Of a stretch of DNA of 43,947 nt, positions 1 to 43,438 are shown in pieces (the stretch's first letter is position 1; every line of letters starts with the position of its first letter). Source of the DNA: a virus. The notes beneath the pieces are model-generated. The model saw only the letters and a program-made list of their open reading frames with translations. It made no database searches and had not been told where the DNA came from. Where the stretch lies: IMG/VR virus record IMGVR_UViG_3300037540_000107, positions 1-43,947 of that record. One strand, given 5' to 3'. A program made the translations under genes and the position numbers.

Positions 1-127
1 ATTGTATCTATCATTTAATCCTCCTCTTAATTTAGAATCCAAACTCTGGATCTTCTGCCTTTACTAGATGGCCTGTATTGCTATCCATCCTCACCTCATC
101 ACACTTCCCAAGCATCCCCCACTCTCT
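1..127. repeat. Terminal 127-bp direct repeat (left copy)
   Basis: Bases 1-127 are identical to 43821-43947. A repeat of exactly 127 bp equals a common maximum assembler k-mer, so this is most likely the overlap of a circular contig rather than a physical terminal repeat. It covers the end of the primase-helicase gene and, at 1-14, the first codons of the 42-residue membrane protein that is complete at the other end of the window. Confidence 0.9.
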
Positions 128-1705
128 GTTTTTAAGTAAGGATAGCCTGACTCTGCCTCTCTCACCTGATTCTAATATCTCAGGCTCAATAGCTATGATA
201 TTCCAAGCAAGCTGCTCAAATGCCCCGCTACCACGTGCTGCGTCAGTTGCCACAGTATCCCAGTAGGGGTATTGTATATTGCCCTTAGAATCCTTGGGAG
301 CAGGCTTGTTGATCCTTCTCACATGAGAGACTACAATAGGGTGGATAGAAGCTTGTTTGGTGAATGCAGCTAACTCAGTGAGGAGAAGATCAATCTCTTT
401 CCTCTCATTGCTTGTCTGGAGTCCACTAAATACCATAGATATATGGTCGAGTATAACAAACTTATAACCTCTTGCATTGGCATATCTTATATCTTTCATC
501 AGCTCATCGGGGCTAATCGATCCAAAGTGATTAACCCACAGTGTTTTCTCTTGAGTTAAAAGCTTCTTCTCGCTTGCTTCCCATTGATCTTTTGAAAGTA
601 AATTAGGATCTTGTCTTAATTTAGGTAGTGATACCCTGTTATCTAATGCAATATAACTTTGTTGAGTCTTTCTGATATCCTCCTCCAGAAATACATGGAG
701 TATTGATTTATCAGCTGAGAGTAAATCATAACCAATCTGCTTACATACAGTGGTTTTCCCTACTCCAGGAGGAGCCAGTATAATGGTCATCTCTCCTTGC
801 CTGAACCCATGGAGCTTTTCCATCAGCTTAGGTAAGCACTTGATTTCAATCCCATCTTTAAGAGGCTCCTGGAGTGCTTCAATCCCTATACTACCGGAGA
901 CTATATCAGCGGGAAGGTACGGCTTTGCGGAAAAGTAAGAACTCACGAACTCTTTCTCTTTTCCTTTAACCAGCATATCACTGGCATCTTTTTCAGATAT
1001 TGTTAGGATTCTAGCTTTCTCATAGCCAATAATATCAACTATTTGACTAGCTGCTTTCCTACCTGCTTCATCCATATCAGTGGCAATTATCACCTCTTTA
1101 AAAGAGAGTATGAAGTCGAGATTATCAGCTACAGATGCACAGCTCTCTCCCTTTGGAAGTGATGTAACTACCGGATTGTACGTGGCTAACATCTGATGGG
1201 CAGCTACACAATCCTCTTCTCCCCCAGTAATTAAGAGCCTTTTTCCACCTGCTTCACATACAGCCTGACCGAAAAGTTCAATCTTTCCATTACCGTCACC
1301 TATAGAGGTAAAGCTCTTTGGAAGGAGCCTTTTCTTATAACCTGTAGTCTCTCCCTCTTTCGTAATTGGGTAGTAATATGCTACTGGCTCTCCCGTTGCT
1401 TCACTACACTCACTCTTCACACCAAAATGGGCGTAGGTTGCTTGCGTTATTTTGCGCTCTTTTGATAGCTTATACGAAAGCCTAGATATAATTGCTAATG
1501 AAAGCTCATTCTTATATGTTGGACTATAGGTAAACAGCTCCTCCTTTCTTATTGGTCTTTCTGGTACGCCTCCTTTATGTTCATAGTATCCGCACCTGTT
1601 ACAATACTTATTCCCATCTTCAAACACAATCAGATGGTTGCCTGTAGAGTCTCGCCCCTTCTCACGGCATTTTGGGCAAGGCTCATCTCCTATTATTTTT
1701 CCCAT
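32..1705 (-). CDS. T7 gp4-like primase-helicase
   Basis: This 557-residue bifunctional replication protein should unwind the fork and lay down primers. The N-terminus has a four-cysteine zinc ribbon (CPKC near residue 10, CNRC near 35). A TOPRIM primase domain follows, with GGEEDCVAA near residue 160 and the acidic motif TDMDEAGR near 210. The C-terminal RecA-like helicase has Walker A APPGVGKTT near 313 and Walker B FVILDH near 420. Length and order match T7 gp4 (566 residues). The ATG follows a GGGGGAGAATAG ribosome binding site and lies 4 bp after the preceding gene. It belongs to the leftward replication operon, upstream of the exonuclease half of the polymerase once the circle is closed. 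Confidence 0.95.
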   Translation of the reverse strand: MGKIIGDEPCPKCREKGRDSTGNHLIVFEDGNKYCNRCGYYEHKGGVPERPIRKEELFTYSPTYKNELSLAIISRLSYKLSKERKITQATYAHFGVKSECSEATGEPVAYYYPITKEGETTGYKKRLLPKSFTSIGDGNGKIELFGQAVCEAGGKRLLITGGEEDCVAAHQMLATYNPVVTSLPKGESCASVADNLDFILSFKEVIIATDMDEAGRKAASQIVDIIGYEKARILTISEKDASDMLVKGKEKEFVSSYFSAKPYLPADIVSGSIGIEALQEPLKDGIEIKCLPKLMEKLHGFRQGEMTIILAPPGVGKTTVCKQIGYDLLSADKSILHVFLEEDIRKTQQSYIALDNRVSLPKLRQDPNLLSKDQWEASEKKLLTQEKTLWVNHFGSISPDELMKDIRYANARGYKFVILDHISMVFSGLQTSNERKEIDLLLTELAAFTKQASIHPIVVSHVRRINKPAPKDSKGNIQYPYWDTVATDAARGSGAFEQLAWNIIAIEPEILESGERGRVRLSLLKNREWGMLGKCDEVRMDSNTGHLVKAEDPEFGF

Positions 1706-1708
1706 TAT

Positions 1709-1963
1709 CTATTCTCCCCCTCTTTCAAGTAAATCAACCTCATGTATATGGATTACACATCCCAATGCTTTCATAATAAGATTTATAGTCTCTCCTTTTC
1801 TACCAATAAGAAGTCCTGGCCTACGTAAATACACATGCAAAACTTCATCAACATAATCTAGCTTACATATACCTAAATGAAAGGAGTCTATTCCTTTAAA
1901 CATTGGGGAATAATCCCCTGCCCCATCAATCATTACAATAAAACTACACTTAAAATCATGCAT
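1709..1963 (-). CDS. KH-domain-like small protein
   Basis: An 84-residue protein. The stretch LRRPGLLIGRKGETINLI contains a GxxG-type loop (IGRKGE) followed by a helix, as in KH RNA-binding domains, so RNA or single-strand DNA binding is inferred. I chose the ATG at 1963 because AGGAGGAG lies just upstream; a longer reading frame to 2053 overlaps the preceding gene. The gene ends 4 bp before the primase-helicase. The KH assignment rests on one motif. Confidence 0.6.
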   Translation of the reverse strand: MHDFKCSFIVMIDGAGDYSPMFKGIDSFHLGICKLDYVDEVLHVYLRRPGLLIGRKGETINLIMKALGCVIHIHEVDLLERGGE

Positions 1964-1964
1964 A

Positions 1965-2123
1965 TTACTCCTCCTCTTCCTCAACCTCTTCCAAAAGCCC
2001 AATCTGTAATGCGTATTGGTAGACTTCTTCAAGTTGATTCTCTTCCTCTTCATCTAACCAACTAAGGATACTATTAAGATCTTCTTGTTGCTCCCATGTC
2101 ATATGTTTACTTGTATTATACAT
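1965..2123 (-). CDS. Small acidic hypothetical protein
   Basis: A 52-residue ORF rich in glutamate and ending in a Glu-only tail. I do not recognise it. Its stop (TAA) is followed directly by the ATG of the KH-like gene, and the codons of its acidic tail double as that gene's ribosome binding site (GAGGAGGAG). Such acidic phage early proteins often bind host proteins, but nothing here shows that. Confidence 0.6.
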   Translation of the reverse strand: MYNTSKHMTWEQQEDLNSILSWLDEEEENQLEEVYQYALQIGLLEEVEEEEE

Positions 2124-2701: not shown

Positions 2702-3097
2702 CTACCTCCTAGCAATACCAAATTGATCTACTACTCTATTAGTTCTACCCCAATTGATATCCCAGTTAAAGACAAACTCCTGCCCTTTGTCAAGTATAAA
2801 CAGGCAGTTATTACACAAACTAGAATAGTCAACATTAGGGTCAATATCAACGATATGGAATTGACACCTTGTATAGCTGATCCCCTCTTGAAACATTGTT
2901 GAGGAAGCCACATTGTAAAACTCACATCTGAGGAAGTCAAGATATTGATTACCTTCAAACAACTCAATATCAAGAATAGAGTTATCAAAATTACATTTAT
3001 ATAAGACTGAATCCCTAGCTGATATTTTAACATTGCCTGATAGACCTGCATTGGCCAGGCTACTATCGTCTAGTATTATTGCGTAACTATGAGACAT
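2702..3097 (-). CDS. Hypothetical protein, possible beta-helix fold
   Basis: A 131-residue protein with a strong GGGGAGGAGGTAATATA leader before the ATG. Repeating short segments (VLYKCNFDNSILD, LDFLRCEFYNVASS, SYTRCQFHIVD) with a C-x-F pattern look like turns of a pentapeptide-type or parallel beta-helix protein. If so it could be a DNA-mimic inhibitor, but this is speculative. Confidence 0.55.
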   Translation of the reverse strand: MSHSYAIILDDSSLANAGLSGNVKISARDSVLYKCNFDNSILDIELFEGNQYLDFLRCEFYNVASSTMFQEGISYTRCQFHIVDIDPNVDYSSLCNNCLFILDKGQEFVFNWDINWGRTNRVVDQFGIARR

Positions 3098-5270: not shown

Positions 5271-6107
5271 TTAATTCATTGCTACGGGCTGACCCCAGGC
5301 ATAGAGTGTGTCACTTCCATAAGAACAAGATACTTTCCCTCTTGTATAATTACCAGCGGTTATTATTTCAGTGATACATATATCCGCTTTAGTAGCTGAA
5401 TAGTCTACACTCATAGTATAGTTTAAGCTATCTGGAGTATACTCACTTAAGTAAACTCCTGTTGATGCGTAGAAATCACCAGCCTTAATAGCCTCTATGG
5501 TAGCCATCCCACTATCTCTTACCATTATAAAAGCTTCCCCTGCATGAACTTCGCTAGTTTTAAGATAATGGTTATCACTAGCTGCAACCCCATACATCAG
5601 CTTCCCGTTAGCAAGTACATAGTCCCAGGCTTCTTCTTCTAATACTGATGAGTTTGATAAGGATTGAGTCCCCTCGTTCCATACCTCAAAGAGGGAGGTG
5701 GTATCTGCTAACATATCCTCTTTATCATTGAAGCTGTATGCAAGTGGGTGGTTGAATATGATCTTCTCATTATCTACGGCTACGTGGTGAGTGTGAGGAT
5801 CTTCTATTGTGCTCATCTCCTCACCCGCTATTACCTCAAGTCCTTCCTGATCCTCATAGGTCACATAGTTATGGTCAGTTATAATGATGGTATCAAAACA
5901 GCTATCCTTGTACCATTTAGCCACAACACTGGGAGAGCTATCCCCATCTGAGTTAGTCGTATGGGTGTGGGTCTCTACCTTCTTCCACCCGCTTATTTCT
6001 ACACATCTAGCTGGAGGAGCTAGTGGAAGTGTAAGAAATATTTCTTGGTGGCCACAAGCTGAAAGTATTAATAGTAGTGCTGGTAATGTTCTCATTGTCT
6101 TTTTCAT
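5271..6107 (-). CDS. PHP-domain phosphoesterase lipoprotein
   Basis: This 278-residue protein starts with a lipoprotein signal (MKKTMRTLPALLLILSACG; lipobox LSAC with the cysteine near residue 18), so it should be lipid-anchored outside the cytoplasm. A PHP-type metallo-phosphoesterase core follows: HTHTTNSDGD near residue 47, ITDHN near 77, ECG-free acidic segment IAGEEMS near 93, HPLAY near 120, and SDNHYLKT near 178, supplying His and Asp metal ligands. The substrate cannot be read from sequence. A secreted PHP enzyme is unusual in a phage and suggests alteration of the infected cell's surface or degradation of extracellular phosphate esters. It has its own GGGGGAAACCAA leader. Confidence 0.8.
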   Translation of the reverse strand: MKKTMRTLPALLLILSACGHQEIFLTLPLAPPARCVEISGWKKVETHTHTTNSDGDSSPSVVAKWYKDSCFDTIIITDHNYVTYEDQEGLEVIAGEEMSTIEDPHTHHVAVDNEKIIFNHPLAYSFNDKEDMLADTTSLFEVWNEGTQSLSNSSVLEEEAWDYVLANGKLMYGVAASDNHYLKTSEVHAGEAFIMVRDSGMATIEAIKAGDFYASTGVYLSEYTPDSLNYTMSVDYSATKADICITEIITAGNYTRGKVSCSYGSDTLYAWGQPVAMN

Positions 6108-6137
6108 TTGGTTTCCCCCTTAAGGTTTGGTTAGTTT

Positions 6138-6341: not shown

Positions 6342-6548
6342 CTAACAATGGGTTTGATAATATATCCTAGCCTCTTTCTTTGCTTGTTGTAAAGTTGGTT
6401 CGATTGTTATAGTATCAGATGTTTTGTAGTCCCACACCCTGAACTCACCAAATCTTGTCTTGGTAATTGACAGGCGGGTACTATGAATCATTCTCCAATC
6501 ATAATCATCTTTTATCCACTCACATTTAATACATTTACATTTTGTCAT
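6342..6548 (-). CDS. Hypothetical protein
   Basis: A 68-residue ORF with N-terminal CKCIKC and the leader AAAGGAGATTAAGA. It contains a stretch typical of small phage proteins that end in a helix (TLQQAKKEARIYY). Function unknown. Confidence 0.6.
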   Translation of the reverse strand: MTKCKCIKCEWIKDDYDWRMIHSTRLSITKTRFGEFRVWDYKTSDTITIEPTLQQAKKEARIYYQTHC

Positions 6549-6565
6549 TCTTAATCTCCTTTGGT

Positions 6566-6712
6566 TTAATTAAGCCTTACAAGTCCGTCATAAGGGACAA
6601 ACTCATAAAGCACTTTTCCGTTTAATTGTAAATATAAGCTAACACAGGCTCTTAAGTAAGTCAAGATCTTTTTTAACAGCTCGTTATCTTTTTCTCCTTC
6701 TAGAACAATCAC
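6566..6712 (-). CDS. Small hypothetical protein with GTG start
   Basis: A 48-residue ORF: a helical first half (EGEKDNELLKKILTYLRACV) and a strand-like end (GKVLYEFVPYDGLVRLN). The only in-frame start is GTG and no clear ribosome binding site precedes it, so the gene call relies on protein-like composition and on its position 17 bp before the next gene. It would be the first gene of the leftward arm. Confidence 0.45.
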   Translation of the reverse strand: MIVLEGEKDNELLKKILTYLRACVSLYLQLNGKVLYEFVPYDGLVRLN

Positions 6713-6853
6713 AGCTACTTACTTACTCAGCTACTCACTAAGCTCATACTAAGTGAAGCCCTTTGGAAGGAGTTAGGGTAGCATAGCTTTAGTTAACAAG
6801 GCAACTATATCTCTCACTTTAGAAAGCTCCCTTAAGATCAAGCTAACTATACT

Positions 6854-6881
6854 ACATAATTGTAAGAAGCGACATAATTGT
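6854..6881. repeat. Paired operator-like repeat ACATAATTGT
   Basis: ACATAATTGT occurs at 6854-6863 and again at 6872-6881, 18 bp apart. Each copy is an imperfect palindrome (ACA...TGT), and the second extends to GACATAATTGTC. On the minus strand they precede a possible -10 box (TATAGT). They could be binding sites for a regulator of leftward transcription. Confidence 0.4.
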
Positions 6882-7174
6882 CGTTAGTTAAAGTAAAGCA
6901 TTAGGTTATAGGCTGTTGAGAGGGGGCTTCTTGGGGGGCTCCCTCTTTATCTCCCACCCCATAACAAAGAGCTCTTTAGAAAGAGGGCTCTTACTTTTAA
7001 GCTCCTATAATATATAGAGGCTCTTTATAGAGGGAGCTTATTCTTTTGCTCCTGGGAGAGGAGAAATATTGAAGAGGGGGGTAAGGGGGGTTACAGGGGG
7101 CTCCATATAAGGTGAGTAGCCCCTTTTAGATTTCCCCAATAAATTATGAGATTAAGATTTAGCCTAGATTATTA

Positions 7175-7232
7175 ACAGCTTGTTCCAGAAAGCCTGATTA
7201 ATCTTAACTTTATTTACAGCTTGTTCTAGAAA
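7175..7232 (+). repeat. Direct repeat ACAGCTTGTTCYAGAAA
   Basis: Two copies (7175-7191 and 7216-7232) start 41 bp apart, about four helical turns, just upstream of the late promoter. A reverse copy of the core TTGTTCTAGAA lies near 6697-6708 and a weaker relative (ACAGCCCGTTCTAGA) near 7590. The spacing suggests protein binding sites. Confidence 0.45.
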
Positions 7233-7267
7233 ACTCAATATAAATATAATTATTTTAACTCTAGCCC

Positions 7268-7295
7268 TTGACAAATGAGAATTAATGATTATAGT
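7268..7295 (+). promoter_or_regulatory. Sigma70-like promoter for the late region
   Basis: TTGACA (7268-7273) and TATAGT (7290-7295) are separated by 16 bp: a perfect -35 and a 5-of-6 -10. It is the only good rightward promoter seen upstream of the structural genes, about 490 bp before the first of them. Confidence 0.65.
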
Positions 7296-7299
7296 TTAG

Positions 7300-7660
7300 A
7301 ATAGAGTTGGGAGGAAACCCCAGTTCTTTAGCTGATCATTCGATAGGTTTGTACAGCTTGAGCTTAACAGCTTAGGCCAATGCTAACCGAGAGGGGTCGG
7401 AACTGTAGGAGCCTAGGGGAATAGAGCTGCTACGATGAAAACAGGTTCTCTTTACGGAAAGGCTTGCTTAGGCAGGTATATAGAGTTGGGGCCTCTTAAA
7501 AAGCCCACCTGATAAACTTCATCAGCTAACGAGAGATAAGAAGCCCCGCTTTAAGTCTCTCAAGTTATAGGGCCTGGTTTAAATAACTACAGCCCGTTCT
7601 AGAGGGAGCCCCCTCGCACAGCTTGTGTGGAAAGGCTCTTTCCAAAAAGCCCCTCATAGA
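7300..7660 (+). ncRNA. Candidate structured leader RNA
   Basis: Downstream of the late promoter the transcript has no ORF but many inverted repeats. CTTAGGC (7371-7377) pairs with GCCTAGG (7411-7417), enclosing CCGA...TCGG (7387-7400). CTGAT pairs with ATCAG (7509-7525). GAGAGA (7531-7536) pairs with TCTCTC (7556-7561), with AAGC/GCTT inside. GAGGG/CCCTC (7602-7615) and CACA/TGTG (7617-7627) follow. This succession suggests a folded leader or stable small RNA. I do not recognise a known RNA family. Confidence 0.45.
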
Positions 7661-7781
7661 ATAGCTATGTTTAAATTATATAGCTTATATATTATTAATA
7701 TAATTAAAGATCTTTCTAAAAGGCTCTTTCTAGAGGGCTCCTTGGATCGATTTTTTTTTATCAAGAACGGAGAACCCCCTA

Positions 7782-7937
7782 ATGCCTAAGAATCAAGCTG
7801 TACAGAAAGCAGAAGCTGCCCACAGGGTTGCACTTGCTAAAGCCAAAGCTAATCCCACTAATGTCAGAGCAGCAGCTGATGTTATAAAAACTAAGAGGAA
7901 AAGAGATATGGCTATTATAATGGCTACTGGTAATTAG
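7782..7937 (+). CDS. Small basic hypothetical protein
   Basis: A 51-residue Ala/Lys-rich helical protein (MPKNQAVQKAEAAHRVALAKAKA...) with an ACGGAGAACCCCCTA leader. It is the first ORF of the late region, immediately before the small terminase. Its basic, helical make-up would suit DNA binding. No family recognised. Confidence 0.55.
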   Translation: MPKNQAVQKAEAAHRVALAKAKANPTNVRAAADVIKTKRKRDMAIIMATGN

Positions 7938-7975: not shown

Positions 7976-8452
7976 ATGAGTATCTTAAAACAATCAAAAC
8001 CTGGGGTAAACGGTAAACCCAGATCTAAGTCTTTATTTGAAGATGGGACTTATGATATAGACCTTTTCCATAAAAGGTTTATTGAACTTGAAGACCTCAC
8101 TGAATATAAACCAGCCATGGAGTTAGTCAAGTCTTGGCAGGAATGGAATAGACTCGGTAGAGATTGGCCTGACTTTAGAAGCTATGTGAAGCAATGGAAG
8201 GATGAGTTAGAAACAAAGCTTAAGGCAGAAGCCCTACAGAAAGTCCTTACCTTCTCTAGGGGAGATGATCAAAAGGCTCTCACAGCCTCTAAATTCATCG
8301 CTACGAAGGATTACAACAGAGAGGCTGGGGTAGGTAGGCCAACCAAAGCGCAACAGCGTAGAGAGGCCAAAGAGCTCTCTAAAGACCTATCTGAAACTAA
8401 AGCAGAGAGTAAGCGTATTAATGACGCTCTTAAATTGGTAAAAGGTGGTTAA
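7976..8452 (+). CDS. Terminase small subunit
   Basis: A 158-residue protein that should recognise phage DNA for packaging and recruit the large subunit. The C-terminal half (ALTASKFIATKDYNREAGVGRPTKAQQRREAKEL) has the 'AAKFIA-KGY...GRPSK' pattern of small terminases of T7-like marine podoviruses. It lies one membrane-protein gene upstream of the large subunit. An 11-codon mini-ORF (7939-7974) ends one base before its ATG and may couple translation. Confidence 0.75.
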   Translation: MSILKQSKPGVNGKPRSKSLFEDGTYDIDLFHKRFIELEDLTEYKPAMELVKSWQEWNRLGRDWPDFRSYVKQWKDELETKLKAEALQKVLTFSRGDDQKALTASKFIATKDYNREAGVGRPTKAQQRREAKELSKDLSETKAESKRINDALKLVKGG

Positions 8453-34643: not shown

Positions 34644-35357
34644 TTAGTATACCCTCCCATTCCATCTACCGTTTTTCTTAAGTACCATTGGTAAAAGCTT
34701 TGGTTGTCCATCTATAATAATACCAGCTGTTAATATTGGCCTGTCCTTTTGCGCTTTGTTATAGGCATATGCCATACTCTTAATATCAAACAAGCAGCCT
34801 AGTTGCATCCCCCAAAAAAGATTCCGTGGGTTAGCCCAGTAATGGATAGATGCTTTTGAGTGGTAGTGACCCTGTACTATGTTCATCCCCATGTTCTTAC
34901 TAACCTGCATTGCATTAGCACTTTTCATATGGACGAAGTAAACAGGCTGTCTATTACTCATCGTTAAGGTGAAATCAAACTTCCACTGCCATCCATCTCC
35001 TACTCCATATATATCATTATAGCTTTTAATTACCCCTGCTGGTAAACCAGCTGCTACAACCCTCCTATGGATTAGGCTCCCATGGTTTGACTTTACTATC
35101 AACATCTCTGGGAATATACCCTCTAACTTTCTAAGAAACTTCTGAGTCTCGATCAGCTCTTTAGTAGCTGAGAAAAGAGAGGGGTCAGATTGATGGAAAG
35201 ATATCGCATGGTTATCAGCCTCATCCCCCAGATTCACAACCCTGTCAGGATTATATTGCTCTTTGATAGCTTCCAAGAATCTAAGCACATCCTTGTGGTG
35301 GTAAGGGGAGTGGATATCACCTATCGTCAACACTCTTTTGTTTTTGTAATGTTTCAA
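34644..35357 (-). CDS. Calcineurin-like metallophosphoesterase
   Basis: A 237-residue two-metal phosphoesterase. The motifs are TIGDIHSPYHH (D-x-H), VNLGDEADN (GDxxD), KSNHGS (GNH-like), VYFVHM and VQGHYHS (GHxH). Phage members are often annotated as DNA repair exonucleases or nucleotide-processing enzymes; the exact substrate is unclear. Located within the replication and nucleotide block. Confidence 0.82.
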   Translation of the reverse strand: MKHYKNKRVLTIGDIHSPYHHKDVLRFLEAIKEQYNPDRVVNLGDEADNHAISFHQSDPSLFSATKELIETQKFLRKLEGIFPEMLIVKSNHGSLIHRRVVAAGLPAGVIKSYNDIYGVGDGWQWKFDFTLTMSNRQPVYFVHMKSANAMQVSKNMGMNIVQGHYHSKASIHYWANPRNLFWGMQLGCLFDIKSMAYAYNKAQKDRPILTAGIIIDGQPKLLPMVLKKNGRWNGRVY

Positions 35358-38681: not shown

Positions 38682-39785
38682 TTAGTGTGTTTGGGCCCAG
38701 TTCCTACCAACAATAGCCTTTCCAACAATTGGCACTTTATAATTATAATACCTACCAGCCTCTACGAGAGCCCTCAATGCAAGATCTGCATATTGCTTCT
38801 CCTGCCCCTCTCTAACCTGGGCCTGCCATTCATCATGCTGCTGTATCAATAGATAGGCTTCTATATCGGTCTTAGGCAACCACTCCAGCCATAGAATCTT
38901 CATGGCTCTCTTTATAATTAAAGCCCCATCTGATTGAAACTTAAGATTAACAAGTGAATGGGAGGATCTAGCGAATAACTTCCTTCCATCTAGCCCTATT
39001 ACATACCCTCCCTTCTCAGCCCTCCTCGATTGCCAAGCCTTTGTTACAGCTTCCTTCATCCCTGAGAGGGCTGTGTTGTCCCTCCAAAAGTTATTAAATA
39101 ACTGAGCTGCCTTAAGCTTAGAGCAGCCTAGGATTTCTTGGAGCCTAGGTATCTGACCTCCGTAAGTGAGTGCGTATTTAGGACTCTTTGCACCATCTCT
39201 ATCTGTTCCGAATAGTCTGGCATTAGCTGAGTGAACATCTCCCTCAATGAGCTCATGAGCGTATCGCTTGCCTCCTTGGAAGCTGAAGCAATTGTGAGCT
39301 TCCGTTCTGGCTTCGAGAGCAGATGCATCAACACCGACCATTGAGTAGCCCCGAGGTACTTTGAAGAGGCTCCGCATCTCTTTTCCATAGACAACCTTCT
39401 CACTTGCTTTTGGTACATTTACCACTACCCTGTGTTGATACCTACCTGTGTTACACCCACATGGATTAGCGGATGCTTCAATCTTACCATCTCCACGAAC
39501 CTGATTTATCCAACCTTTATTATCGGGATCTTTTATATTAAGAATCGTATTACGCCTGTGGGTAAGTACATTCCTCCTAGCTATAAGCTGCCCAAACTCT
39601 CCTTTAATGGAGCTGAAAGAATCCTCAGTTAGTTTAGGGGAAGTCTTTTCCTTAGTCTTTTTATTGAAGTTCCATTGAGTTGGTTTCCATCCCTGGGTTA
39701 AAAGGTAATCCTTTATCTGAGAATGGCTGTTAAGATTGAATCTCTCAAAAGAGACTTTCGTGTATGGGCCTTTTATATTGTGCAA
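38682..39785 (-). CDS. Family A DNA polymerase, C-terminal polymerase half (split gene)
   Basis: This 367-residue chain carries the whole catalytic palm and fingers of a T7-type polymerase. It has motif A GVDASALEARTEAH, motif B RDGAKSPKYALTYGG (Arg, Lys, Tyr spaced as in T7) and motif C IQQHDEWQAQV. Its first residues, GPYTKVSFERFNLNSHSQIKDYL, align with T7 APYTPVVFNPSSRDHIQKKL, so the split falls in the thumb-side region just before this segment. The gene starts at TTG (39785) behind a perfect GGAGGTG ribosome binding site, with in-frame stops just upstream. It is therefore made as a separate chain and must assemble with the exonuclease half at 42503-43438. Confidence 0.9.
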   Translation of the reverse strand: MHNIKGPYTKVSFERFNLNSHSQIKDYLLTQGWKPTQWNFNKKTKEKTSPKLTEDSFSSIKGEFGQLIARRNVLTHRRNTILNIKDPDNKGWINQVRGDGKIEASANPCGCNTGRYQHRVVVNVPKASEKVVYGKEMRSLFKVPRGYSMVGVDASALEARTEAHNCFSFQGGKRYAHELIEGDVHSANARLFGTDRDGAKSPKYALTYGGQIPRLQEILGCSKLKAAQLFNNFWRDNTALSGMKEAVTKAWQSRRAEKGGYVIGLDGRKLFARSSHSLVNLKFQSDGALIIKRAMKILWLEWLPKTDIEAYLLIQQHDEWQAQVREGQEKQYADLALRALVEAGRYYNYKVPIVGKAIVGRNWAQTH

Positions 39786-39816
39786 TCTCTATCACCTCCC
39801 TACAAAAAACCTTTCT

Positions 39817-39900
39817 AAGTAAACACTTTAGTTCACCGTTTTCATTAAACAAACAGCACATACTATACAGAAGCGGCTTATCAACACTGTTCTGTTACTT
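39817..39900 (-). other. Possible attC site after cassette 9
   Basis: AAGTAAC directly at the end of the cassette 9 ORF and GTTTACTT 84 bp later could be R'' and R' boxes (reverse complements except for one base). The central part folds poorly, so this right boundary is the least certain of the array. The polymerase ribosome binding site begins about 20 bp further on. Confidence 0.4.
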
Positions 39901-40144
39901 ATTTTGACCTGTTATTACTTTTGCATTTTTGGTTATTGCACTTAAAATCGTAATCATCTGCCGCCTCGGTGCTACAATCAAAACCCTCCATAAAACAACC
40001 ACAAGCGCAACAACGATTTTCCTCCTTGAAGGGCTGTTTCGTAACAGAACCAGCCGCAGCATCAGAATTGCTAAGGCTTGCGTTATTAAAAGCCTCCATG
40101 TATGCCATCACTTTGACTAATTTTCTAATGTCTTTAGTCACCAT
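39899..40144 (-). CDS. Cassette 9: cysteine-containing hypothetical protein
   Basis: An 81-residue protein with CCACGCF, FDCST and FKCNNQKC in its C-terminal half, suggesting a zinc site. ATG at 40144 follows CAGGAG. The upstream junction is a reduced attC site (GATTAGC). Unlike cassettes 1-8, no clear complementary R'' is present downstream. Function unknown. Confidence 0.6.
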   Translation of the reverse strand: MVTKDIRKLVKVMAYMEAFNNASLSNSDAAAGSVTKQPFKEENRCCACGCFMEGFDCSTEAADDYDFKCNNQKCKSNNRSK

Positions 40145-40158
40145 CCGCAATCTCCTGT

Positions 40159-40175
40159 GCTAATCGTTATATTAC
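40159..40175 (-). other. Reduced attC site after cassette 8
   Basis: GTAATATAAC (R'' of cassette 8, the reverse complement of that cassette's first bases) is followed at once by GATTAGC. The L''/L' hairpin found in full sites is missing, leaving 17 bp. Confidence 0.5.
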
Positions 40176-40190
40176 TCAAGAAAAGCCGTA

Positions 40191-40478
40191 TCAATCTGCT
40201 TTGTTCAGCGGCCATCCGCCTTCAAATTGTTCCTTTAGTGCCTCTACTTGTGCGTAGAACATATCAAAACCAGCTTTATTTTTAAAAAATATCATCGTGT
40301 CGGCTCCCTGTTCGTGCAGCAAGTCTCCCTTCTTCACAGTTTCGCAGGGTGTGCCAATCTCTTTCTTGTCTGTTGGTATAAAGCCAAGCCCTATGGCTCC
40401 TTCTACTTCACAACAAGTAGTCACTATTGATCCGTGTCCATACTCAATAATCTTTATGCCGTTTTCAGTCCAAATCAT
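40191..40478 (-). CDS. Cassette 8: hypothetical protein
   Basis: A 95-residue protein (MIWTENGIKIIEYGHGSIVTTCCEVEGAIGLGFIPTD...) with alternating strands and helices. The leader is TTGGAGGTTACATA. The cassette starts G|TTATATTAC and its R'' reads GTAATATAAC. No family recognised; the largest cassette product. Confidence 0.65.
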   Translation of the reverse strand: MIWTENGIKIIEYGHGSIVTTCCEVEGAIGLGFIPTDKKEIGTPCETVKKGDLLHEQGADTMIFFKNKAGFDMFYAQVEALKEQFEGGWPLNKAD

Positions 40479-40513
40479 TATGTAACCTCCAATCTGTTAA
40501 TTTTTCGGCAACC

Positions 40514-40576
40514 GTAATATAACCAGCGCATTAAGCACCGAAAACCAAAGGTTTCGGCTTATGCTGGTCGTTCGGT
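40514..40576 (-). other. attC site after cassette 7
   Basis: A 63-bp site from ACCGAAC (R'') to GTTATATTAC (R' plus start of cassette 8). The inner part folds into an extended hairpin: CCAGC/GCTGG, AAGC/GCTT and CCGAAA/TTTTCGG around AACCTTTGG. This is the clearest attC fold in the array. Confidence 0.8.
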
Positions 40577-40593
40577 TGCTTAAGCTCAAAAAG

Positions 40594-40752
40594 TTATAGT
40601 TTAACTTCTTTCCCATCTTTTATGAGTAACACTTTTAATGTGTTACACTTTTCACAGGTTATAGATACTCCACCAAATACATGCGCTTCTGTTTGCCACG
40701 GCAATACTTTTTGCTGAGTATTTCTTTTACATTTTCCACAATAAAGCCTCAT
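40594..40752 (-). CDS. Cassette 7: small zinc-ribbon protein
   Basis: A 52-residue protein with CGKCKRNT near the start and CEKCNT in the middle: a four-cysteine ribbon. Start at 40752 follows ACGGAGGAAGTTATT. The cassette begins G|TTCGGTGTG and its R'' is ACCGAAC. Unknown function. Confidence 0.65.
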   Translation of the reverse strand: MRLYCGKCKRNTQQKVLPWQTEAHVFGGVSITCEKCNTLKVLLIKDGKEVKL

Positions 40753-40774
40753 AATAACTTCCTCCGTTTCGCAC

Positions 40775-40836
40775 ACCGAACAAGTTGCTCTATCTGAAGC
40801 CCGCTATCGCGGCCTCAGTAAGCTTGTCGTTAGCTG
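40775..40836 (-). other. attC site after cassette 6
   Basis: A 62-bp site from CAGCTAAC (overlapping the TAA of cassette 6) to GTTCGGT. Inverted repeats ACAAG/CTTGT and CTGAGGCCGC/GCGGGCTTCAG surround a GATA loop. The R'' is the exact reverse complement of the first bases of cassette 6. Confidence 0.8.
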
Positions 40837-41030
40837 CTTACTATCTCAAGCCTTGACGCTCCGCAAGTTAAGGCAAAAAACGCTTCTTCTCCATCTTCTC
40901 GCTTTGCATATACTTTGCTTGGTTCAACCTTGGTAATTTCTAACTCATCCCCAAGTTTTGCGAATCCAGGCGCACCCATACCGACAACTTTTACTTTATC
41001 TCCAGGCTTTACAGTTTCAAAATCAATCAT
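40830..41030 (-). CDS. Cassette 6: SH3/KOW-like hypothetical protein
   Basis: A 66-residue protein (VKPGDKVKVVGMGAPGFAKLGDELEITKVEPSKVYAKREDG...) with the small beta-barrel pattern of KOW/SH3-like domains. The leader is TCAAGGAGAAAAAAA. Its stop codon is part of the attC R'' box. Function unknown. Confidence 0.65.
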   Translation of the reverse strand: MIDFETVKPGDKVKVVGMGAPGFAKLGDELEITKVEPSKVYAKREDGEEAFFALTCGASRLEIVSS

Positions 41031-41058
41031 TTTTTTTCTCCTTGATAAGTAGTAAAAA

Positions 41059-41114
41059 CAGCTAACAAGCCGCTCAAGCAGACCTTCGGCAGCTTAGCTA
41101 AATCGTTATAAACC
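41059..41114 (-). other. attC site after cassette 5
   Basis: A 56-bp site from GGTTTATAAC (overlapping the stop of cassette 5) to GTTAGCTG. It carries AACGATTTAGCTAAGC on one side and GCTTGAGCGGCTTGTT on the other. Size, AAC...GTT boundary and paired AGC-AAGC / GCTT-GCT are typical of short attC sites. Confidence 0.8.
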
Positions 41115-41312
41115 TACCAGCTCAATAGCGTTTTCAACTATCTTGTCTAATTCTGTTTGTATTTCTTCCAGCTCCATATTAATTGCACTCAACAGATCAT
41201 CGTGCTGTATTGCTAAGTCGTTGTCAATGGTCGTCATATGCTGCTCTGGTGAGTTATCAATATCATTCCGTAATTTGAGTATTCTGTCTCGAATTGTCGC
41301 CATTCCATCCAT
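41106..41312 (-). CDS. Cassette 5: coiled-coil hypothetical protein
   Basis: A 68-residue protein predicted almost entirely helical (IRDRILKLRNDIDNSPEQH..., INMELEEIQTELDKIVENAI). ATG follows ACCGAAAGG. Its first bases GTTATAAACC are the exact reverse complement of its R'' GGTTTATAAC. Unknown function. Confidence 0.65.
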   Translation of the reverse strand: MDGMATIRDRILKLRNDIDNSPEQHMTTIDNDLAIQHDDLLSAINMELEEIQTELDKIVENAIELVGL

Positions 41313-41318
41313 CCTTTC

Positions 41319-41380
41319 GGTTTATAACCAGTATATTAAGCAGACCTCACAAGGTTCGGCTCCTTATTATGTCGTTCGGT
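41319..41380 (-). other. attC site after cassette 4
   Basis: A 62-bp site from ACCGAAC to GTTATAAACC. TAAG/CTTA and AACCT/AGGT form its stem around TGTG. R'' is complementary to the start of cassette 4 (GTTCGGT), and R' belongs to cassette 5. Confidence 0.75.
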
Positions 41381-41383
41381 TGC

Positions 41384-41587
41384 TTAAAGATTATCAAATA
41401 AGGCTTCGCCACCGTCTTTCTTTGCCCAATAATTTATTGCTTCCGCACAACTTCTACAATACCAAGCCCTTGTACTCTTGTTATAGTAATTCGCGGATTT
41501 GGCCCGTTGGCAAACTGTCCTGTTGCAGTTCTTACCCTTCTTGCCTTTTCCTTTTGTATTTGTTCCAGCTCTAATTGTATTTTCCAT
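41384..41587 (-). CDS. Cassette 4: zinc-binding-like protein
   Basis: A 67-residue basic protein with cysteines spaced C-x5-C (near residue 20) and C-x2-C (WYCRSCAEA near 44), typical of a small zinc finger. The leader is ACGGAGGAAATAA. Unknown function. Confidence 0.65.
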   Translation of the reverse strand: MENTIRAGTNTKGKGKKGKNCNRTVCQRAKSANYYNKSTRAWYCRSCAEAINYWAKKDGGEALFDNL

Positions 41588-41607
41588 TTATTTCCTCCGT
41601 TTCGCAG

Positions 41608-41680
41608 ACCGAACCAGCCGCTTAATTTCGACATTCATCCGCTTCGCTCCTTCTGCGATTTAGCTCAATCGTTATAAACC
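41608..41680 (-). other. attC site after cassette 3
   Basis: A 73-bp site from GGTTTATAAC to GTTCGGT, with inner pairing AGCTAAATCG / CGAAATTAAGCGGCT. R'' matches the start of cassette 3 (GTTATAAAC, exact reverse complement). Confidence 0.75.
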
Positions 41681-41685
41681 TTATA

Positions 41686-41931
41686 TTAATCAGTTGGTGG
41701 CTTCGGTAAAGCATCCATTAATTCAAAAAAGGCGTCCATTTGGTACATTAATGTTTCCCCGCTATCACCATCACCACCGGCTTTCCAGCAAAATGAATCT
41801 CCATAGTCATTAAAATCGTGTCGCATAATAAAATACATTAATTCCTCCGATTTAGGGTGATGGGCTATGCCTTCTTCCCATCTGTCTTGGGTGGTTAAAC
41901 CAAGTTTTTTAGCTTTGTCATAATTATCCAT
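41686..41931 (-). CDS. Cassette 3: acidic hypothetical protein
   Basis: An 81-residue protein (MDNYDKAKKLGLTTQDRWEEGIAHHPKSEEL...) with a Glu/Asp-rich body and the segment AFFELMDALPKPPTD. ATG at 41931 follows ACGGAGTAAATTA. No family recognised. Confidence 0.65.
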   Translation of the reverse strand: MDNYDKAKKLGLTTQDRWEEGIAHHPKSEELMYFIMRHDFNDYGDSFCWKAGGDGDSGETLMYQMDAFFELMDALPKPPTD

Positions 41932-41950
41932 TAATTTACTCCGTTTCAGT

Positions 41951-41992
41951 TTATAACCAGCCGCTAAACTCACAGGCAACTAAAATTCTCAT
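41951..41992 (-). pseudogene. Remnant of a methyltransferase-like gene in a broken cassette
   Basis: Between a reduced attC site and the start of cassette 3 is GGAG, a spacer, then an ATG opening MRILVACEFSGWL and a stop. MRxLVACEFSG is a typical start of a family of phage/bacterial DNA methyltransferase-like proteins. The ORF is cut after 11 such residues and runs into the next junction (CTG|GTTATAAAC). It looks like a 5' fragment of a lost cassette. Confidence 0.45.
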
Positions 41993-42012
41993 AATATTCT
42001 ACTCCGCAGTAA

Positions 42013-42029
42013 ATCTAACATCGTTAGAG
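42013..42029 (-). other. Reduced attC site after cassette 2
   Basis: CTCTAAC (R'' of cassette 2, overlapping its stop) is followed by GAT and then GTTAGAT. Only 17 bp; the internal hairpin is absent. Confidence 0.5.
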
Positions 42030-42245
42030 TTCTTCATGCCCAATCATACCTAAAGTTTTCTTTTCATCGGGTGTCAATTTTAAATTAACTGAAGCAAGTT
42101 GCCCTTCCACCTGCAATCTGGTTCCCCATGAGTTACACTCCTTAACAAACGCCTTGAAAAAGATAGCTTGTTCATCGTCACCAGATTGCGCTAATACCGC
42201 ACCCACATACTCCCAATCAAAGTCTTTTTTTATACCCATTCGCAT
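42024..42245 (-). CDS. Cassette 2: hypothetical protein
   Basis: A 73-residue protein (MRMGIKKDFDWEYVGAVLAQSGDDEQAIFFKAFVKECNSWG...). ATG at 42245 follows CTGGAGGGAATAAA. A longer frame to 42287 would include the attC junction and is rejected. The helical segment with DDEQAIFFKAFVKEC recalls small host-derived proteins that I cannot name with certainty. Confidence 0.65.
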   Translation of the reverse strand: MRMGIKKDFDWEYVGAVLAQSGDDEQAIFFKAFVKECNSWGTRLQVEGQLASVNLKLTPDEKKTLGMIGHEEL

Positions 42246-42259
42246 TTTATTCCCTCCAG

Positions 42260-42280
42260 AATCTAACCAGTTGTTATAAA
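42260..42280 (-). other. Reduced attC site after cassette 1
   Basis: TTTATAAC (R'' of cassette 1), AACTG, then GTTAGATT: 21 bp with no internal hairpin. The sequence ACTG|GTT is the same end as in the full site before cassette 5. Confidence 0.5.
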
Positions 42281-42492
42281 TTATCAAACATGCTCGGTTC
42301 TTCGTTCGCCAATTTTACAAGTTCAACAATCTGCGTCTCTAACTCTGCCACACCTATTACATCACCTTCGATTACATCATCACCGCCAGTATACAGTTTT
42401 ACTGTTCCGCAACCATTTTCCATATTTACAACCATTTCATATCCATCCGGCAATTTCCCACATACCAATTGTGTCATTTCAAAAACAGTCAT
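42274..42492 (-). CDS. Cassette 1: acidic hypothetical protein
   Basis: A 72-residue acidic protein (MTVFEMTQLVCGKLPDGYEMVVNMENGCGTVKLYTGGDD...). The first bases of its cassette (GTTATAAA) are the reverse complement of its R'' (TTTATAAC), which overlaps the stop. The leader is AATAGGTGTGAT. Function unknown; both it and cassette 4 end in FDNL. Confidence 0.65.
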   Translation of the reverse strand: MTVFEMTQLVCGKLPDGYEMVVNMENGCGTVKLYTGGDDVIEGDVIGVAELETQIVELVKLANEEPSMFDNL

Positions 42493-42502
42493 ATCACACC
42501 TA

Positions 42503-43438
42503 TTATTTTTTTTTTTTATAACTCGTTATATTACTTAATGCACCTCTTTCTCCTGTAAAGTAATCAACAACTCTTTTCTTAAGATCCCCGTCTTTCTTAA
42601 AAGGAGCACCCTCCTTTGTACCAGGAACTACCCTCATGGGGAGCTGCTTATAAAGTTCTCTATCTATTTCAGCTATTTCCTTATCAAGTTTATCAACTAC
42701 CTCAAGAGCGAGTGGAGTATTGAAGCTCACGCCATTCATCTCCTGTTGCCCCTGGAGGAGAGCTATAGAATACTCTAACTCTATAGCCTCCTCCCAGTCC
42801 CAACTTTCCCTCTCCTCAGCTAGCTTATCAAACGTTAGCTGCCCAATCAGGGTATCTACTATACATCTAATAAGCATGTTAACTGAGAAGTTGGCCCAAT
42901 CTTCCTCTTTAACCTTCTCCTCCCCAAACCTCAATCCCCAAGCCTCGATAGAATGGCGTTCTTTTGTGCCTTTTGGCACTGGTCTATCTGCCCAAAACAG
43001 ATTAGATAAGGTGAACGTATCTTCGTAACCCTTTGGGTTATACCTTGGATATAACTTTTTCAAAAGTGGGAGATCATGGGAAAATCCATTATGCCAAACC
43101 TGAATATCAACTAGATTTAGTAAGTTAATAAATTCATCTAGCTGCAAAAATACAATTTCCCTAAAGCTCCTTTTAGAATGAGCCTCTAAGAAGAGCTTAT
43201 TAATTAAATAGTTATTATTAATAGTATTAATTATTATCTGCTCATTCTGAAAGGCTCTCTTGTTGTTGAGCTGTATTTCTTTATACCATATTTCAGCTGA
43301 AAAGTCAAGCTTTTTCTTATTTTTATTATTTAAACCAATAAATAGTTTGTTTGTTTCAGCTTCAAACCCCACTATACAGTGGATTTCTGTAGCTTGAAAC
43401 TTAAAACCATTGCTCTCTGAGTCACATACTAGCTGCAT
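42503..43438 (-). CDS. Family A DNA polymerase, N-terminal exonuclease half (split gene)
   Basis: A 311-residue chain with the 3'-5' proofreading domain of a T7-type polymerase and the first part of the polymerase domain. It has Exo I VCDSESNGF (D-x-E) at the N-terminus, Exo II WHNGFSHDLPLL near 115, DTFTLSNLFW, HSIEAWGLRFGE near 163, and ExoIII-like YSIALLQGQQEMNG near 228. Homology runs through VPGTKEGAPFKKDGDLKKRVVDYFTGE, then the frame enters cassette DNA and stops after SYKKKK. The tail after about residue 296 is probably not native. 311+367 residues together approximate the 704 of T7 polymerase. Confidence 0.88.
   Translation of the reverse strand: MQLVCDSESNGFKFQATEIHCIVGFEAETNKLFIGLNNKNKKKLDFSAEIWYKEIQLNNKRAFQNEQIIINTINNNYLINKLFLEAHSKRSFREIVFLQLDEFINLLNLVDIQVWHNGFSHDLPLLKKLYPRYNPKGYEDTFTLSNLFWADRPVPKGTKERHSIEAWGLRFGEEKVKEEDWANFSVNMLIRCIVDTLIGQLTFDKLAEERESWDWEEAIELEYSIALLQGQQEMNGVSFNTPLALEVVDKLDKEIAEIDRELYKQLPMRVVPGTKEGAPFKKDGDLKKRVVDYFTGERGALSNITSYKKKK
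42515..42534 (-). other. Left boundary of the array, reduced attC-like
   Basis: GTAATATAAC, GA, then G|TTATAAA at the end of the exonuclease ORF. AGTAATATAACGA here is repeated exactly at the end of cassette 8. An R''-like box ahead of the first cassette suggests that an earlier cassette was lost at this point. Confidence 0.5.

Follow-up and report, generated by a model that had tools for sequence, protein, structure and literature searches.

The locus described here raises the question of whether a phage can encode a lipid-anchored, metal-dependent hydrolase for the envelope of its host. The window, by which we mean the whole stretch of 43,947 nucleotides analysed, contains an ORF at 5271-6107 on the minus strand, with an ATG start and 278 codons plus a stop. 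The initial annotation read its product as a phosphoesterase with a clear lipobox and a PHP metal-binding core, unusual for a phage, and placed it on the outside of the infected cell. The gene and the features that define its surroundings are as follows.

5271 to 6107, minus strand: predicted 278-aa lipoprotein with a PHP (CehA/McbA-like) metallohydrolase domain (ORF, profile and model evidence)
6115 to 6121, minus strand: Shine-Dalgarno site AAGGGGG, 7 nt 5′ of the ATG (read from sequence context)
32 to 1705, minus strand: DNA primase/helicase, end of the same leftward block (phrog_239, E 1.3e-137)
6550 to 7930, no strand assigned: non-coding region between the leftward and the rightward structural blocks (divergent promoter-like sites, degenerate repeats)

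The lipoprotein gene is the third ORF of the leftward block, counting the listed minus-strand ORFs of at least 60 aa. The block starts near 6548, ends with the primase/helicase and is directed away from the non-coding region of approximately 1.4 kb; the rightward genes begin near 7976, with those for terminase, a head-tail adaptor and the major head protein among them. Early expression of the lipoprotein gene is suggested solely by its position upstream of the primase. The non-coding region contains degenerate direct repeats of 17-29 nt, a change of sign in the GC skew and divergent promoter-like sites, and is probably a control region or origin. The phage is Zobellviridae-like. Its terminase is 45-49% identical to those of phages such as CRP-5, P12053L, MEP402, ICP2 and SIO1 (among the best 30 of 746 matching records); the nearest two that were found in IMG/VR have identities of 57 and 59%. 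CRP-5 and MEP402, which are filed as Zobellviridae, have the same overall plan, with small genes ahead of the primase.

Other genes of the phage were also noted. Directly before the primase, at 1709-2053 (minus strand), lies a gene whose small product contains a KH-type RNA-binding motif (PF00013, 24.4 bits, above the cut-off). A calcineurin-like metallophosphoesterase, which would be a second metal phosphoesterase of the phage, is encoded at 34644-35357 on the minus strand (PF00149, 23.6 bits, above the cut-off). The minus-strand ORFs at 2702-3097 and 2731-3051, either of which may be the true gene, overlap almost entirely, in different frames of one strand. The DNA polymerase is apparently split (38682-43438, minus strand), with an N-terminal part at 42503-43438 and a C-terminal part at 38682-39785. 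These parts, assigned by eye and by synteny, lie approximately 2.7 kb apart with small same-strand ORFs between them, and the N-terminal part had no Pfam match at E 0.1. CRP-5 and MEP402 have two polymerase ORFs as well, but these overlap or are approximately 230 bp apart.

Three parts were distinguished within the lipoprotein gene.

6054 to 6107, minus strand: putative lipoprotein signal peptide and lipidated Cys, residues 1-18, lipobox L-S-A-C (PROSITE-type rule)
5457 to 5987, minus strand: predicted PHP barrel, residues 41-217, with nine ligand positions and the GDFYASTG motif at 210-217 (alignment, model)
5274 to 5456, minus strand: small beta-rich C-terminal part, residues 218-278, with the family motif AWxQP near the end (alignment, model)

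The N-terminus of the protein (MKKTMRTLPALLLILSAC-G) has positive charges, then an uncharged stretch and then the lipobox LSAC, and this lipobox (MKKTMRTLPALLLILSA followed by C18-G) conforms to a PROSITE-type lipoprotein rule. Of the window's 84 ORFs with an ATG start and a length of 60 aa or more, one satisfied the rule; when the N-terminus of the lipoprotein gene product was shuffled, 281 of 20000 versions did so. When it was combined with a hydrophobicity test, 3 of 1910 ORFs from the window and 91 related-phage loci passed, the window gene among them. Weak N-terminal matches of the protein to lipoprotein families were also found. The clear lipobox of the initial annotation thus stands, and the lack of an export signal, which would have told against it, was not seen. 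These features suggest a bacterial-type lipoprotein signal, with lipobox and cysteine, and an envelope location for the protein. The residue at +2 after Cys18 is Gly, not Asp. By the E. coli sorting rule, Gly rather than Asp at this position favours the outer membrane, and sorting to the outer membrane is favoured here for that reason. Placement on the outside of the infected cell goes too far as worded, since a lipoprotein of the outer membrane can also be turned towards the periplasm.

Comparison with curated families gave scores below their cut-offs. The protein scored 18.8 bits (E 0.0021) with Pfam PF02811 (PHP), against a gathering cut-off of 26.4, and 50.5 bits (E 2e-13) with NF038032 (CehA_McbA), against a cut-off of 80. 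NF038032 was the best curated match, and covered the N-terminal PHP part as well as the later HP...SDxH part. Because the score falls below the cut-off, the protein appears to be a diverged relative of NF038032 and not a member. The cut-off was passed by all five cellular relatives tested (95.5 to 108.3 bits). The ligands and the GxFYASTG and AWTQP-type motifs are common to the phage protein and the cellular relatives above the cut-off, whereas the phage protein is without two of the barrel helices and a portion of the C-terminal domain. In a control, NF038032 gave matches in 12 of 14 well-known genomes, mostly below the cut-off and above it in 4; a weak match alone therefore says PHP, not CehA.

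We also used an HMM of cellular relatives from which the window protein was excluded. A single scan of genome contigs for exact motifs gave 184 relatives; the best 80 were kept and 79 were aligned. This independent HMM gave 136 bits with the window protein (E 6.5e-44 against that protein alone, 1.1e-39 among 15257 ORFs). It gave 56 bits with a TrpH-like PHP gene, 207, 137, 115 and 90 bits with four plasmid CehA-like proteins, and 170 bits with a PHP protein of record MT835755. The related profile A3, searched against nine genomes or records, scored other PHP places at approximately 19 to 76 bits, with one at 139.5. As judged from sequence, the lineage would be that of the CehA/McbA-like PHP proteins, and the bacterial relatives include exported ones.

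The PHP metal-ligand set (HxH...D, TDH, E, H, H, DxH) is present in the phage protein. Nine ligand positions are kept (H47, H49, D54, H79, E97, H108, H120, D178 and H180), and each is invariant across all 79 relatives in the alignment, with H47, H49 and D54 partly fixed by the search patterns for many of these. The assignment of H108 depends on the alignment, A3 having H105 in the conserved column; the spacing of 11 residues from E97 to H108 is that of RNase AM in the profile alignment. E141, W161, G210, Y213 and R256 are kept as well. The relatives have DDxH, in which the first Asp is D in 79/79, where the phage protein has SDxH with Ser177; SDxH is also present in TM0559 and 3e38. Approximately 25-30 residues between H108 and H120 are missing from the phage protein compared with the relatives, and its C-terminal part, with AWGQP near the end, is shorter than theirs. 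It is a trimmed, fast-evolving PHP form. A loss of metal ligands would have spoken against the proposed PHP core; none was seen in the alignment, and the kept ligands, the score with the independent HMM and the predicted fold all bear that core out.

The predicted fold was obtained with AlphaFold2 from 54 aligned sequences (pLDDT 82.8, pTM 0.81). Mean pLDDT values over ten-residue blocks were 88-97 at residues 41-100 and 161-278 (80 at 181-190), 65-79 over residues 101-160, and approximately 50 or less over the first 30 residues. The best solved structure was 3e38 (Z 17.9, rmsd 3.2, 201 aligned residues), and 2anu also matched (Z 15.6, rmsd 2.8, 161 aligned residues). Further matches were to 3e0f (Z 14.9), RNase AM (9etk and 7ug9, both 14.4) and 2yb1 (13.4). 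The model and its matches to 3e38 and 2anu point to a PHP barrel, so that the structure prediction and comparison with PHP families proposed in the initial annotation came out in its favour. The full alternation of strands and helices around the barrel was not seen in the phage model, much of the stretch concerned being at confidence 65-79. A cellular relative, L067, modelled likewise (pLDDT 92.1), has two more barrel helices. These helices (79-85 and 126-139) lack a counterpart in the phage model when the lists of elements are compared, as opposed to superposed, and helix 126-139 falls in the 25-30-residue deletion between H108 and H120. The part of L067 that follows its barrel (about 255-331) resembles beta-sandwich domains with Z 8.2 to 8.8, near the level commonly seen.

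The nearest solved proteins also bear on what the domain might act upon. Nucleic acids are the substrates of the PHP domains in RNase AM, PolX and EndoQ, and an envelope-tethered nuclease could degrade incoming (competitor) or extracellular DNA or RNA. RNase AM ranks with the closest solved structures both in the sequence-profile comparison (9etk E 1.2e-15, 7ug9 E 1e-14) and in fold, and EndoQ matches the model of the cellular relative L067 at Z 15.8, though it is absent from the 50 fold matches listed for the phage model. Against a nuclease, 3e38 and 2anu are better by fold and are titled only predicted phosphoesterases, and no nucleic-acid-binding domain was matched in Pfam; we consider this activity quite improbable. 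BVU_3505 (3e38), TM0559 (2anu), Cv1693 (2yb1) and RNase AM (7ug9, 9etk) have the PHP fold and ligand pattern in common with the phage protein, but are only 12-27% identical to it. Several of the four are probably cytosolic, and their substrates differ or lack a report. CehA is known as a hydrolase of the carbamates carbaryl and oxamyl. The designation of the phage protein as a phosphoesterase was thus not upheld as stated, phosphoesterase activity being only the usual chemistry of the superfamily.

Over most of the protein, cellular relatives are 23-33% identical to it (best segment, best 80 of 184). An 87-row tree places the phage protein inside a group of 29 rows, drawn from Gemmatimonadota, KSB1, Acidobacteriota and others, in which most proteins are exported; the hydrophobicity test marks 23 of its 28 cellular rows as exported, and the phage row was labelled by hand. 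Support is modest, at 85/79 for the group and 81/59 for the sisters, and the phage branch is the longest of the tree, at 2.32 changes per column. The strict lipobox rule is met by four distinct relatives (L026, L067, L032 and L047; 5 of 89 entries, one gene occurring twice), all in the same group as the phage row.

The exported Gemmatimonadota and KSB1 proteins share a signal peptide followed by WxKxxTHxHTxxSDGD and WY with the phage protein, and some appear to be lipoproteins like it, L026, L067 and L032 by the rule and L191 and L194 by eye. The Gemmatimonadota and KSB1 segments listed are 35-60% identical to it; the best long ones reach 41-44% over about the first 100 residues, and the 60% segment comprises 57 residues (40-96). 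These proteins differ in being cellular and approximately 50-70 residues longer (L067 331, L026 about 332 and L032 about 350 aa, from the chosen ATG). At E <= 1e-12, matches were found in 20 of 249 genomes of Gemmatimonadota, the phylum of L032, and in 2 of 82 of KSB1, the phylum of L067. At the locus designated L193, two exported-looking relatives are adjacent genes, apparently a tandem duplication.

Because the branch is very long and the placement weak, the substrate of the phage protein may have changed or its activity may have been lost. In the latter case, the PHP fold might be a relic scaffold in a non-enzymatic lipoprotein that binds an outer-membrane protein or peptidoglycan, as the T5 lipoprotein Llp binds FhuA. 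The two missing barrel helices, Ser instead of Asp at position 177, the very long branch and the scores below curated cut-offs would fit such a relic, but all nine ligand positions are kept despite strong divergence elsewhere, which points to selection on metal binding. A relic scaffold is improbable. The protein is very probably an exported PHP-fold hydrolase. The initial proposal of a lipid-anchored PHP metallohydrolase in a phage is in this respect supported by the sequence evidence.

The initial annotation also suggested that phylogeny might reveal recent transfer from a bacterium. As far as the motif scan of genome contigs and the separate searches of Gemmatimonadota and KSB1 reach, recent transfer is unlikely because no branch of the tree is longer than that of the phage protein; the identity of 23-33% over most of the protein, with 60% over 57 residues as the best short segment, and the base composition argue the same way. 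The GC content of the lipoprotein gene is 0.416 and its GC3 0.362, compared with 0.421 and 0.371 for the phage primase and 0.419 and 0.358 for its ribonucleotide reductase (RNR). The gene is read as an old, fast-evolving acquisition. The same composition argues against a bacterial gene misassembled into a phage contig, as do the location of the gene among the small ORFs of an uninterrupted leftward block that has the phage primase at its end and the failure to find a close bacterial source in the motif scan of genome contigs or in the Gemmatimonadota and KSB1 genomes. Such an artefact could be entertained on the grounds that the IMG/VR record is a linear metagenomic contig and that no match was found in 30 related phage records, but it is very improbable.

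Those 30 records, many of them fragments, were drawn from 88 known related records and included CRP-5 and MEP402; none matched profile A3, which finds the window but contains the window protein. With the independent HMM, no match at E <= 10 was obtained in 91 loci of the 88 related-phage records, many of which are fragments. When INPHARED (50,697 records) was searched by tblastn with the phage protein, 3 records matched at E <= 1, none covering 80%. The first of these contains a TrpH-like PHP ORF, identified by eye, in an unverified fecal record (the gene scored above at 56 bits), and the other two are 31% matches over 27% of the query; all three were rejected. A search of INPHARED with a cellular relative (L025) gave 3 records at E <= 0.1, of which the best was MT835755. 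This record holds a genuine relative (L198, 170 bits) but was rejected as a phage carrier, since it reads as a bacterial chromosome. MT835755.1, although filed among phages, encodes a solute-binding protein, two permeases and a methionine synthase-type protein. The other two matches were one of 26% under a portal gene and one of 28% in a 5.4-kb fecal record.

Scans of IMG/VR for exact motifs matched 9, 105, 32 and 14 stretches, and no relative was found among them; diverged relatives could be missed by such scans. In ten further IMG/VR motif stretches, the best tblastn match had E 0.063 (L019) and the best match to the independent HMM 12 bits (E 0.011, L013), the latter being rejected as it is out of frame within a helicase-like ORF. 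In BFVD, one protein, from Siphoviridae sp. ctBLh2, matched the predicted fold at E <= 0.001. Apart from the window protein, the viral PHP-type matches were to DNA polymerases (a weak match to phrog_405, and a DnaE in BFVD), the uncharacterised ctBLh2 protein and the TrpH-like fecal gene. No paper on phage PHP proteins was found in the open-licence full-text literature. The gene is rare in phages, as its initial description as unusual implied and as INPHARED, the IMG/VR motif scans and the related phages all indicate, but we do not call it unique.

We propose that the host lipoprotein pathway (Sec, Lgt, LspA, Lol) would export the protein and lipidate Cys18, the host being assumed to be Gram-negative, and that the protein would probably be anchored in the outer membrane. 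PHP enzymes have two- or three-metal sites, and the folded domain would bind two or three metal ions. The metal site would then hydrolyse a phosphoester, or another ester or amide, within the envelope; hydrolase chemistry is suggested by the PHP fold and its ligands. Early expression would put the enzyme in the envelope before virion assembly.

The purpose of such an enzyme could be nutritional. As an auxiliary metabolic gene, it would specify a periplasmic phosphodiesterase or esterase with a lipid anchor, which would supply phage DNA synthesis with phosphate or organic nutrients in the manner of the exported catabolic enzymes of its cellular relatives. Some relatives do adjoin genes for transporters or hydrolases: L026 a TonB-dependent receptor and an alpha/beta hydrolase, L046 a sodium:solute symporter, and L008 a sugar ABC permease. 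The phage itself has nucleotide-supply genes, identified by eye (RNR, dUTPase), and the related phage CRP-5 has a gene annotated as phosphate starvation-inducible. However, no metabolic function is annotated for the genes next to that of the phage protein, other cellular loci (L067, L031) have unrelated neighbours, and no common theme was found among ten neighbour genes at four cellular loci. A nutritional role is possible but, on balance, unlikely.

Modification of the envelope or of a receptor that hinders secondary infection is the single most likely role, ahead of nutrient release and of a nuclease, although we put it forward tentatively and at rather less than even confidence. We prefer it because this is a familiar function of phage lipoproteins. 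According to PMC9586334, the T5 lipoprotein Llp, which is periplasmic, blocks reinfection by jamming FhuA, and exclusion proteins are made early by many phages. The window protein resembles Llp in being a phage-encoded lipoprotein, with no homology implied; Llp is small and, in that text, acts by binding FhuA and not by catalysis, whereas the window protein is a predicted hydrolase. Nothing was found at the locus that ties the gene to exclusion, and the PADLOC anti-phage defence models gave 0 families at E up to 1. An exported, lipid-anchored, metal-dependent hydrolase with an envelope-editing role in exclusion is, taken as a whole, our best explanation, and we hold it as somewhat short of an even chance. 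The more specific proposal, in which an early outer-membrane hydrolase edits a surface or periplasmic polymer and so destroys the phage's own receptor or entry path, seems rather doubtful. If true, an enzymatic exclusion lipoprotein of this kind would represent a new mechanism, since Llp acts by binding.

The fold family is already known, and what is new is its phage lipoprotein form. An exported, lipid-anchored, stand-alone PHP hydrolase would widen the range of known phage proteins sent to the host envelope, and the compact mature protein, of 261 residues, is a natural test case for the amount of PHP barrel that the metal site requires. No report of a substrate was found for the exported bacterial relatives, and a single assay might bear on many proteins from uncultured lineages. 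An enzyme that edits the envelope would link exclusion by phages to enzyme chemistry; one that releases nutrients would represent a new kind of auxiliary metabolic gene.
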